The notes beneath the pieces are model-generated. The model was not told where the DNA came from. It saw only the letters and a program-made list of their open reading frames with translations, and searched no databases. The position numbers and the translations under genes were made by a program. Shown here piece after piece: positions 9,051 through 51,423 of a stretch of DNA of 64,000 nt; the stretch's first letter is position 1, and each line of letters opens with the position of its first letter. Source of the DNA: Mycolicibacterium insubricum (GTDB lineage Bacteria > Actinomycetota > Actinomycetes > Mycobacteriales > Mycobacteriaceae); assembly GCF_010731615.1 (NCBI RefSeq), contig NZ_AP022618.1, forward strand, positions 2,914,001 through 2,978,000, given 5' to 3'.

Positions 9051-9157
9051 GGCCGGTTCGGCAATGCTCGGCGGAGTCGGCGCGCCCCGACCACCCCAAC
9101 AGCACAAACACCGCCACCGGGCACGCCGGCGGAGCCGAGGGGAAGCCGGGACCGGCC
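9051..9157 (+). repeat. Dispersed palindromic 3'-end element, copy A
   Basis: Starts with GGCCGGTTCGGC 8 bp after the gnd stop and ends with CCGGGACCGGCC. Its second half (GCCGGCGGAGCCGAGGGGAAGCC) is shared with the copies at 37499-37670, 44281-44405 and 51345-51423. The middle is replaced by about 40 bp of unrelated sequence. The ends are inverted repeats, so the RNA can fold into a long hairpin. Confidence 0.7.
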
Positions 9158-9159
9158 GA

Positions 9160-9165
9160 TAGGCT
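9160..9165 (+). promoter_or_regulatory. -10 hexamer TAGGCT of guaB1, leaderless
   Basis: TAGGCT (TANNNT) ends 6 nt before GTG 9172, with no Shine-Dalgarno sequence between, so guaB1 is probably translated from a leaderless mRNA. Confidence 0.45.
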
Positions 9166-9171
9166 TGCACA

Positions 9172-10608
9172 GTGCGGTTCCTCGACGGCCACCGGCCTCC
9201 CTATGACCTGACCTACAACGACGTCTTCGTCGTCCCGAACCGCTCCGAGGTGACCTCCCGGTTCGACGTGGACCTGGCCAGCAACGACGGCTCCGGCACC
9301 ACCATCCCCGTCGTGGTGGCCAATATGACGGCGGTCGCCGGACGCCGGATGGCCGAGACGGTGGCCCGGCGCGGCGGGATCGTGGTGCTGCCGCAGGATC
9401 TGCCGATCGTGGCCGTCGCCACCACCGTCGACTTCGTCAAATCCCGCGACCTGGTCGCCGACACCCCGGTCACTCTGGAGCCGGACGACTCGGTCTCCGA
9501 CGCCATCGCGCTGATCCACAAGCGGGCACACGGCGCGGCCGTCGTGCTGGTCGACGGGCGCCCGACGGGGCTGGTCACCGAGGCCCGCTGTACCGGGGTG
9601 GACCGGTTCGCCCGGGTCCGCGACGTCGCCGTCACCGAATTCGTCACCGCACCCCTGGGTACCGACCCGCGCCGGGTGTTCGCCGCACTGGAGACCGCAC
9701 CGGTCCCGGTGGCCGTCCTCACCCGGCCCGACGGGTCGCTGGCCGGGGTGCTCACCCGCACCGGTGCCGTGCGGGCCGGGATCTACACCCCGGCCGTCGA
9801 CGCCCACGGGCGGTTGCGCGTCGCCGCCGCCGTCGGCATCAACGGCGACGTGGCCGGTAAGGCCACCGCGCTGGCCGCCGCCGGTGTCGACGTGCTGGTC
9901 ATCGACACCGCCCACGGCCACCAGTCCAAGATGCTGGATGCCATCCGCAAGGTCGCCGCACTGGATTTGGGCCTGCCGCTGGCGGCGGGCAACGTGGTCT
10001 CCGCCGAGGGCACCCGCGATCTGATCGAGGCCGGGGCGACGATCGTCAAGGTCGGCGTCGGCCCCGGCGCCATGTGCACCACCCGGATGATGACCGGCGT
10101 GGGCCGACCGCAGTTCTCCGCGGTGCTCGACTGCGCGGCGGCCGCCCGACGCCTCGGCGGCCACGTCTGGGCCGACGGCGGGGTCCGTCACCCCCGCGAC
10201 GTGGCGCTGGCGCTGGCCGCCGGGGCGTCGAATGTGATGATCGGCTCCTGGTTCGCCGGCACCTACGAATCGCCCGGCGACCTGCTGCGCGACCGTGACG
10301 GGCGGCCCTACAAGGAGTCCTACGGCATGGCTTCCAAGCGGGCCGTCGCCGCCCGCACCGCCGCCGACAGCGGTTTCGAGCGGGCCCGCAAGGCGTTGTT
10401 CGAGGAGGGCATCTCCACCTCCCGGATGGCGCTGGATCCCGAACGCGGCGGCGTCGAGGATCTGCTCGACCACATCACGTCGGGGGTGCGCAGCACCTGC
10501 ACCTACGTCGGGGCGGCCGACCTGGCCGAACTGCACGAGAAGGCGGTCCTCGGAGTCCAGTCGGCCGCCGGTTTCGCCGAGGGCCATCCCCTACCGACGG
10601 GTTGGTGA
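9172..10608 (+). CDS. guaB1: GuaB1-type IMPDH/GMP reductase family protein with CBS domains
   Basis: 478 residues: a TIM barrel interrupted by a CBS pair (residues ~95-205, with [14 protein letters not shown] and a second repeat). The catalytic loop GPGAMCTT has its Cys at residue 302, and the flap segment is around RPYKESYGM. Work on the mycobacterial orthologue (Rv1843c) showed GMP reductase activity regulated through the CBS domain rather than IMP dehydrogenase activity. That would recycle GMP to IMP. The GTG start is supported by the leaderless -10. Confidence 0.88.
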
Positions 10609-50114: not shown

Positions 50115-50140
50115 ATACGAGCGGGAAGAGATAAGCGAGT

Positions 50141-51343
50141 ATGACGACAACGGCAAAGCACAAGATCCTCATCGTCGGCGGCGGGACCGCGGGGATCACC
50201 GTCGCGGCCCGGCTGCTGCGCAAGGGTGAGACCGACGTCGCCGTCGTCGAGCCCGCCGACCAGCACTACTACCAGGCGATGTGGACGCTGGTCGGCGGCG
50301 GCCGGGCCGATGTCAACAGCACCGAGCGGTCCGAGGCGTCCGTCATGCCGAAGAAGGCGACCTGGATCCGCAACTCCGCGGTCGCCTTCGACCCGGACAA
50401 CAACGTCGTCGAATGCGCCGACGGCGCCCGCTACGCCTACGACGCACTGATCGTCTGCCCGGGCATCCAGCTGGACTGGGCAGCCACCGAGGGCCTGCCC
50501 GACGCCATGACCAAGCAGGGGGTGGCGTCCAACTACGGGTTCGACCTGGCGCCCAAGACCTGGGAGCTGATCCGCAATACCCGCTCGGGCACCGCGGTGT
50601 TCATGATGCCGTCGGGCCCGATCAAGTGCGCCGGAGCGCCGCAGAAGATCGCGTACCTGGCCGCCGACCACTGGCGCAAGGCCGGCGTGCTGAACAACAT
50701 CGACATCCACCTGGTGCTGCCGACCCCGCGGACGTTCGGCATCCCGGCGATCGCCGACAGCCTGGACAAGGTGGCGGCGGCCTACGGCATCAACGTGCAC
50801 ACCGAGTCCGAGATCACCGGCATCGACGCCGACTCCCGCAAGGTGACCATCAGCACCCTGGGCCCGTCGGGTACCCCGGGCACACTGGATTTCGACATGC
50901 TGCATGCGGTGCCGCGCCAGTCCGCCCCGGACTGGATCAAGACCAGCCCGCTGGCCACCGGTGAGACCACCGGCTACGTCGAGGTGGACAAGCACACCCA
51001 CCAGCACGTTCGCTACCCGAACGTGTTCGCCCTGGGCGACGCCGGGTCGACGCCGAACTCAAAGACCGGTGCGGCCATCCGCAAGCAGGCGCCCGTCGTC
51101 GTGGAGAACGTGCTGGCGCAGCTGGCCGGCCGCCCGCTGACCGGCAGCTACAACGGGTACGCGTCCTGCCCGATCGTCACCTCCGGCCACGACATGCTGC
51201 TGGCGGAGTTCGACTACGACTTCAACGTCACCCCGACGTTCCCGGGCCTGAACCCGGTCACCCCGCACCGGGCCTACTGGTACCTCAAGCGCTACGGGCT
51301 GCCGTTCATGTACTGGAACCTGATGCTCAAGGGCCTCGCCTGA
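50141..51343 (+). CDS. Sulfide:quinone oxidoreductase-like FAD protein
   Basis: 400 residues: FAD motif ILIVGGGTAGITVAARLL (~9-26), YYQAMWTLVGGG (~46), the conserved Cys in GPIKCAGAPQK (~165), a second FAD contact NVFALGDAGSTPNSKTGAA (~297) and a C-terminal Cys in YASCPIVTS (~347). The two cysteines fit the redox-active pair of SQR. It oxidises sulfide to persulfide and passes electrons to quinone. It starts 26 bp after the persulfide dioxygenase, forming a sulfide-detoxification operon. A copy of the dispersed palindromic element begins 1 bp after its stop. Confidence 0.88.
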   Translation: MTTTAKHKILIVGGGTAGITVAARLLRKGETDVAVVEPADQHYYQAMWTLVGGGRADVNSTERSEASVMPKKATWIRNSAVAFDPDNNVVECADGARYAYDALIVCPGIQLDWAATEGLPDAMTKQGVASNYGFDLAPKTWELIRNTRSGTAVFMMPSGPIKCAGAPQKIAYLAADHWRKAGVLNNIDIHLVLPTPRTFGIPAIADSLDKVAAAYGINVHTESEITGIDADSRKVTISTLGPSGTPGTLDFDMLHAVPRQSAPDWIKTSPLATGETTGYVEVDKHTHQHVRYPNVFALGDAGSTPNSKTGAAIRKQAPVVVENVLAQLAGRPLTGSYNGYASCPIVTSGHDMLLAEFDYDFNVTPTFPGLNPVTPHRAYWYLKRYGLPFMYWNLMLKGLA

Positions 51344-51344
51344 C

Positions 51345-51423
51345 GGGCGGTTCGGCAAGCGTGGGCGGAGTTGGCGCGAGCGCAGCGAGTGCCGGCGGAG
51401 CCGGAGTGCAGCCGGCACCGCCC
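51345..51423 (+). repeat. Dispersed palindromic 3'-end element, copy D
   Basis: Runs from GGGCGGTTCGGC to CCGGCACCGCCC, 79 bp, starting right after the SQR stop and in its sense direction. It keeps GCGAGCGCAGCGAGTGCCGGCGGAGCCG, as in copy C, but has a diverged CGGAGTGCAGCC segment. Confidence 0.85.

Follow-up and report, generated by a model that had tools for sequence, protein, structure and literature searches.

According to a review (PMC10969869), Rickettsia palindromic elements (RPE) are small palindromic elements that occur in frame in many unrelated protein genes and add a peptide to the product. In the same review, in-frame fusions by intragenic miniature inverted-repeat transposable elements (MITEs) are given as not unusual, and the frequency reached by RPE as unusually high. 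For mycobacterial interspersed repetitive units (MIRUs), a second source reports apparent mobility, coupling to genes and insertion at start codons (PMC12548453). Here, we analyze a palindrome from Mycolicibacterium insubricum that recurs in a 64,000-nt stretch of contig NZ_AP022618.1 (assembly GCF_010731615.1, positions 2,914,001 to 2,978,000), referred to below as the window. Judged by analogy, the palindrome appears to work like RPE and MIRUs; membership in either group is not established. It most probably represents a mycobacterial family of small mobile palindromes that are non-autonomous. A literature search returned no paper on this palindrome family among the top-ranked matches, most subscription papers being outside its reach.

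Genomic spread, filled and empty sites, and in-frame peptides

A profile model (R1) was built from an alignment of 22 copies from the M. insubricum genome (4,577,045 bases). It yields 90 matches in this genome (E <= 0.01), and all of them, including weak and partial ones, enter the context counts below. They form 69 arrays (52 single, 13 double and 4 triple, 17/69 thus holding two or three copies). The units of the family are about 50, 71-73 and 80 nt long, plus a linker of 7-10 nt. Tandem copies are spaced by 87-90 bp in 19 of 20 intervals in M. insubricum and by 57 bp in 16 of 17 intervals in a relative (G022). Another repeat, around GCGGAGCCAGCGCTGGCCGGATCCGAC, adjoins or overlaps weak copies near positions 839294, 853318 and 3922259 of the M. 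insubricum genome.

Among 297 sampled genomes of the mycobacterial genus, R1 finds the palindrome in 37 (E <= 0.001). A second profile (R2) was built from an alignment of 30 copies from other species (A3). It also finds 37 of the 297 (E <= 1e-4); since the A3 copies were taken from R1 matches, the two counts are not independent. These surveys scored about 16 matches per genome at most. With R2, 15 genomes have at least four matches, and 20 of the other 22 have one. R2 also recovers 88 matches (E <= 0.05) in 49 M. insubricum sources. The family was not found in the other 75 genera sampled in the order, and the 8 positive genomes among 298 of the order all belong to this genus. A lone R1 match beyond the genus (G047, E 0.008) has a sequence unlike the palindrome and was discarded. 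Carriage by plasmids or phages was rejected, as plasmids and phages gave no match and viral contigs gave none for one exact pattern.

The evidence for mobility comes from orthologous sites. Twelve sites of G022 were sought in three other genomes (G093, G205 and G097) with the joined flanks as query. This returned 30 loci, of which 27 were placed against both flanks (L320, L298 and L317 were left out); 10 are filled and 17 lack the element. The clearest site is at position 779216 of G022, where CAGGCTGTTCGG stands on both sides of the element. The site is empty in G093, G097 and G205, with a single CAGGCTGTTCGG, and the net difference is +79 bp in all three comparisons. At five sense in-gene sites (L209, L213, L215, L216 and L220), the filled sequence exceeds the empty one by 57, 66, 48, 57, 63, 60, 63, 57 and 114 bp, and all nine differences (9/9) are multiples of 3. 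The G022 array at 2991254 has filled counterparts in G093 and G205; in several other relatives, it is absent as far as aligned.

Some single-copy sites are shared between genomes. Such copies are found in a UvrD-like gene in six genomes (the six loci found with R1 are all filled), before a conserved start in five genomes, and between the end of a PrmC-like and the start of a Sua5-like gene in three species (L068, L069 and L245). The latter copy, being common to three species, indicates that some copies are old and shared. The UvrD-, PrmC- and Sua5-like names are what we take short translations of these genes to represent. A search of 60 genomes for the UvrD-like gene gave 30 loci, of which 27 lack the element. 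One is filled (G083, already among the R1 loci), one has an apparent decayed copy (G070) and one is unplaced (G072).

For analysis of the genomic context, elements were removed by script, genes were called by a home-made hexamer model, and 18,934 random positions served for comparison. By this procedure, 31/69 arrays in M. insubricum and 20/46 in G022 lie inside genes, 15 and 14 of them, respectively, being deep (over 60 bp away from both ends of the gene). Deep arrays are mostly in sense orientation (11 in M. insubricum and 12 in G022, with 4 and 2 antisense). One codon phase, which reads GGSARL..., is used by 9/11 and 11/12 of these deep sense copies (together 20/23, p 1.6e-7). In 22/23 cases, a called open reading frame (ORF) extends across the copy when the natural sequence is read.

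Each in-frame unit contributes about 19-30 residues, a peptide rich in Gly, Ser, Ala and Pro, for example GGSARLDGGEAKLGPPHEPG. The peptide GGSARLDGGEAKLGPP occurs in the AMP-binding, enoyl-CoA hydratase and KshA-like genes of G022, and an AraC-type gene has a close variant of it. Longer peptides of the GGSAR...EGKPGPP type are found in M. insubricum in a DEAH helicase, a UvrD-like protein, phosphoglucomutase and an M18 peptidase. An M13 peptidase is a further host of an in-frame copy, and the KshA-like host is an oxygenase. When 20 host proteins were scanned against Pfam, two (L197 and L365) had no family match.

Two hosts illustrate the effect on the protein. The phosphoglucomutase peptide (residues ~321-350) is absent from 17 aligned homologs, selected from a list of 120, in which 4-10 residues take its place. 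In the AlphaFold2 model, residues 324-351 have a pLDDT below 50 and lie between two strands. Among seven enoyl-CoA hydratase sequences, the peptide is present in P0122-P0124 (Mycolicibacter heraklionensis, Mycolicibacter sp. MYC123 and M. longobardus), whereas P0125, P0129, P0156 and P0158 read GGDPGELAAD without it. Coding constraint on the element itself was considered and rejected: departures by codon position (0.054, 0.151 and 0.115) lack a protein-like pattern, and in many cases the other frames are open as well. For these reasons, the peptide is probably a by-product.

Hairpin structure and a possible mode of insertion

In the outer stem of the hairpin, NGGCGGTTC(G/A)GC pairs with GC(C/T)GGGACCGCCN, with one bulged G and one pair that is mainly G.U. 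Inside it are an inner stem, purine loops (GGA/GGA) and a tip stem, so that the hairpin has three tiers. In the 80-nt class, which has 72 copies of exactly 80 nt in M. insubricum (64 of them unique), the tip GAGCGNAGCGAG is near-invariant, with a free N. The expectation that the copies fold into a long hairpin was borne out. The five full copies of the window have folding z values of -3.0 to -5.5 relative to dinucleotide shuffles, and the stems covary.

In the A3 alignment, the drawn structure pairs 96.1% of cells, and pairing falls to 26-49% when the partner is slid by 1-3 columns as a control. Both sides have changed in 11/26 pairs. Doubly changed cells number 56 against 19.5 in shuffles, the significance of which is overstated because the shuffles ignore the kinship of the copies. 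G.U cells outnumber A.C cells by 25 to 3 in A3 when the three mainly G.U pairs are left out, and by 60 to 12 among the non-dominant cells of the M. insubricum copies. The hairpin seems to be of importance as a sense-strand structure, either in RNA or in single-stranded DNA.

After insertion, a short stretch of the target is found directly repeated at the right end of the element, and this repeat resembles the element's 5' end. The right flank agrees with the four columns of the consensus CGGG in 33, 33, 42 and 34 of 53 M. insubricum arrays, compared with 2 to 33 of 53 for shifted controls; partial copies account for some of the right flanks. In the 64 unique copies, the seven outermost pairs contain 28 compensated departures, compared with a mean of 4.5 and a maximum of 10 in 1,000 shuffles.

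A mechanism may be proposed from these data. A mobilizing activity would recognize the hairpin on one strand, as RNA or single-stranded DNA. The target would be chosen by its similarity to the 5' end of the element, and it would probably pair with the 3' arm of the element during insertion. An alternative to pairing at insertion would be later hairpin-templated correction, a concept known as quasi-palindrome correction. In its full form, the model is of a hairpin element of 50-90 nt that picks targets by base pairing with its 3' arm, the target replacing the element's own 5' arm. The unit would in addition be pre-adapted to coding by its stop-poor Gly/Ser frame and by lengths divisible by three, and thus be a recurrent source of protein loops in mycobacteria. 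This complete model is offered tentatively, as possible rather than probable.

Besides the kinship of the copies, several points weigh against a mobile element of this kind. In the M. insubricum copies, 133 further non-dominant cells form neither a standard nor an A.C pair, and in the outermost seven pairs, 17 departures are confined to the 5' side and 21 to the 3' side. A T.T mismatch in the stem follows from the best empty site, and this speaks against simple copying. A Y1 transposase (PF01797) is absent from the M. insubricum genome and from 8/9 other element-rich genomes tested. The codon phase has three exceptions (1228235 and 839294 in M. insubricum, 3819578 in G022), one of which, at 839294, is a shifted, odd match, yet reads ...GASGASADGAEGKLGPP. 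At 405148 in M. insubricum, the natural sequence has no ORF that runs across the copy, which may therefore be a 3'-end copy. Gene assignments depend on the hexamer model, and some host calls are weak (e.g., L220, with a score of 24). With 10/27 orthologous loci filled, many copies must be old. At L318 (G093), the linker and the target repeat remain without the element. This footprint looks like a deletion, so that not all empty sites are ancestral. Mobility is deduced from orthologous sites.

An ordinary MITE derived from an insertion sequence (IS), mobilized by the DDE transposase of a full-length element that shares its ends, would account for inverted ends, direct repeats and dispersed copies. 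This explanation overlaps with that of a non-autonomous mobile palindrome and differs from it only in the machinery. We consider it unlikely. The direct repeats appear to vary in length (~4 to 14 bp, as judged visually from few sites), and they resemble the end of the element. Furthermore, terminal inverted repeats have no need of the conserved bulge, G.U pair and purine loops found in the stem.

Copies in the window and their position at stop codons

All copies named in the original prediction are present in the window, where R1 detects five full ones (E 1.2e-18 to 9.8e-10). They align end to end, except that the tip of the copy after gnd is longer by ~28 nt. This copy (9050..9157, +) starts 6 bp past the gnd stop (TGA 9041-9043), and a gene of the IMPDH family (9172-10608, +) starts 14 bp past it. 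The original target is not visible at this gnd-guaB1 junction, as other mycobacterial loci are too diverged there, and R2 found no credible copy in 80 named gnd loci (best E 0.019). The first of two tandem copies (37588..37667, -, a full 80 bp) lies 6 bp past the stop of a fatty-acid hydroxylase gene (37674-38789, -). The second copy (37499..37578, -) follows at a spacing of 89 bp.

A full copy at 44328..44407 (-) lies within the 3' end of an ORF (44325..45251, -) for a short-chain dehydrogenase (SDR, PF00106). It is read in the GGSARL frame, so that the C-terminal peptide of the protein (...MISGGSARLGGGGASGVSAGGAEGKPGPP) is element-derived, and the stop codon (TAA, 44325-44327, -) is directly past the copy. 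A partial copy (5' half, 44282..44320, -) was recognized by eye following it; it is weak in the R1 search (E 0.084, match spanning 44260-44320). The fifth full copy (51344..51423, +) starts 0 bp past the stop of a gene for an SQR-like flavoprotein (50141-51343, +). It is followed by the linker gcgactaaac and CGGGC (51424..51438, +), the latter directly repeating the five bases with which the copy starts (51344-51348). About 2 kb from this copy, there is a gene of the IS605 OrfB/TnpB type (53387-55042, +), the 3' end of which corresponds to a match to the Rfam Transposase-2 RNA (54974-55042, +). The window also contains a glycine riboswitch aptamer (RF00504, 22494-22591, -) upstream of a large gene (19491-22346, -).

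The original prediction held that each copy begins near or across a stop codon, in the orientation of the gene and at a constant phase. It took this for a role in the 3' untranslated region (3'-UTR), in termination or mRNA protection, or for insertion targeted to 3' ends. In the window, this description fits the copies past the gnd, hydroxylase and SQR stops (6, 6 and 0 bp), all of which are sense, and fails for the SDR copy, which is inside the ORF and in frame. Genome-wide, the clustering at stops is clear. Of the M. insubricum arrays, 23/69 are within 10 bp of a stop, compared with 2.0% of random positions, and 4/69 are within 10 bp of a start (random 2.1%). For intergenic sites, 17/38 (45%) are within 10 bp of a stop, compared with 131/1,716 (7.6%) of random ones (Fisher p 1.4e-9). 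In G022, the count is 7/46 arrays (random 1.8%, p 2e-5). The palindrome is a dispersed hairpin family and not a chance intergenic repeat, as had been anticipated.

The orientation bias did not hold up. Within 25 bp of a stop, 14 M. insubricum arrays are sense only, 12 antisense only and 7 both. Other counts lean towards sense: before element removal, the upstream gene is sense for 44/69 arrays, and co-directional gene pairs have 23 sense and 13 antisense arrays. After removal, there are 10 sense and 6 antisense among intergenic co-directional sites, and 20 and 11 inside genes. Nor is the phase relative to stops constant, given the 31/69 arrays within genes, 15 of them far from either end.

A host 3'-UTR element, acting as a terminator or mRNA-stabilizing hairpin after genes, would fit the strong hairpin, the clustering at stops and the sense orientation of the three window copies that follow a stop. 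It is nevertheless quite improbable, as the orientation at stops is even, many copies are read in frame inside proteins, and the spread is patchy (37/297 genomes). A sense-specific version is rejected because of the even orientation. A T run as in intrinsic terminators (TTTT within 15 nt) follows 0/69 arrays; this is weak evidence because TTTT is rare in random stretches of this genome, too (0.4%). At some loci, the copies may incidentally affect mRNA ends. The palindrome looks like a parasitic element rather than a 3'-end signal.

For such an element, we infer that insertion is broader, and that the copies found at stop codons and in protein loops are mainly those spared by selection. Much of the clustering at stops would be accounted for if insertions elsewhere were selected against. 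A true preference for stop regions may also underlie it, and this is still tenable because the enrichment holds among intergenic positions, too.

Comparison with known systems

The palindrome could be of the MIRU type. Both occur in the same genus, are apparently mobile and have coding potential; in addition, both insert at gene borders and form tandem arrays (of 40-100 bp units), and their unit sizes are similar. This assignment is very unlikely. The sequence is different, and while MIRUs are described as inserting at start codons, with an ATGA overlap, the palindrome is found at stops (23/69 arrays within 10 bp, compared with 4/69 for starts) and in genes. A search for a single exact pattern, that of a MIRU-like core, hit 2/371 loci (L086 and L296), neither time at a copy of the palindrome, and R2 has no match in L086 at E <= 1. 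This core (GATGCAGAGCGNAGCGATGAGG), which we take to be MIRU, is located at 7429-7450 of L086 and 1132-1153 of L296, in the latter flanked by ATGACC. Mycobacterium sp. MFM001 has a MIRU-like core that starts 9 bp past the gnd stop, at the junction that holds the palindrome in M. insubricum.

A repeat of the repetitive extragenic palindrome (REP) type, moved by a REP-associated tyrosine (RAYT, Y1) transposase, would fit the strand-specific asymmetry of the hairpin, and is rejected as largely excluded in the present genomes, with a PF01797 protein in 1/10 of the element-rich genomes tested and none in this one, although an enzyme since lost may have acted. Hairpins of RAYT and IS200 systems are strand-specific. 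The palindrome resembles REP/RAYT and IS200/IS605-type palindromes in the strand-specific conservation of its hairpin, and differs from them in its target direct repeats and in the absence of a Y1 transposase from the M. insubricum genome.

For annotators, the non-autonomous mobile palindrome carries a warning, as its peptide and its apparent 3'-end hairpins are in fact repeat DNA. Because genetics is available for mycobacteria, the insertion mechanism and the consequences for the protein are testable.

The palindrome shares in-frame fusions with intragenic MITEs (BOX, ERIC, QMITE1 and others). Unlike these in general, it uses one codon phase in 20/23 deep sense copies, which brings it closer to RPE. 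As in RPE, a palindrome is found in frame within unrelated protein genes and adds a peptide, a comparison made at the level of descriptions. The mycobacterial palindrome differs in belonging to another phylum and genus, in being shorter (~50-110 bp, compared with ~150 for RPE), in being enriched also at stop codons, and in having a target direct repeat that resembles the element end. Given its dozens of host genes, its preference for one codon phase and the occurrence of both filled and empty sites among closely related species, it would be a second strong case beside RPE.

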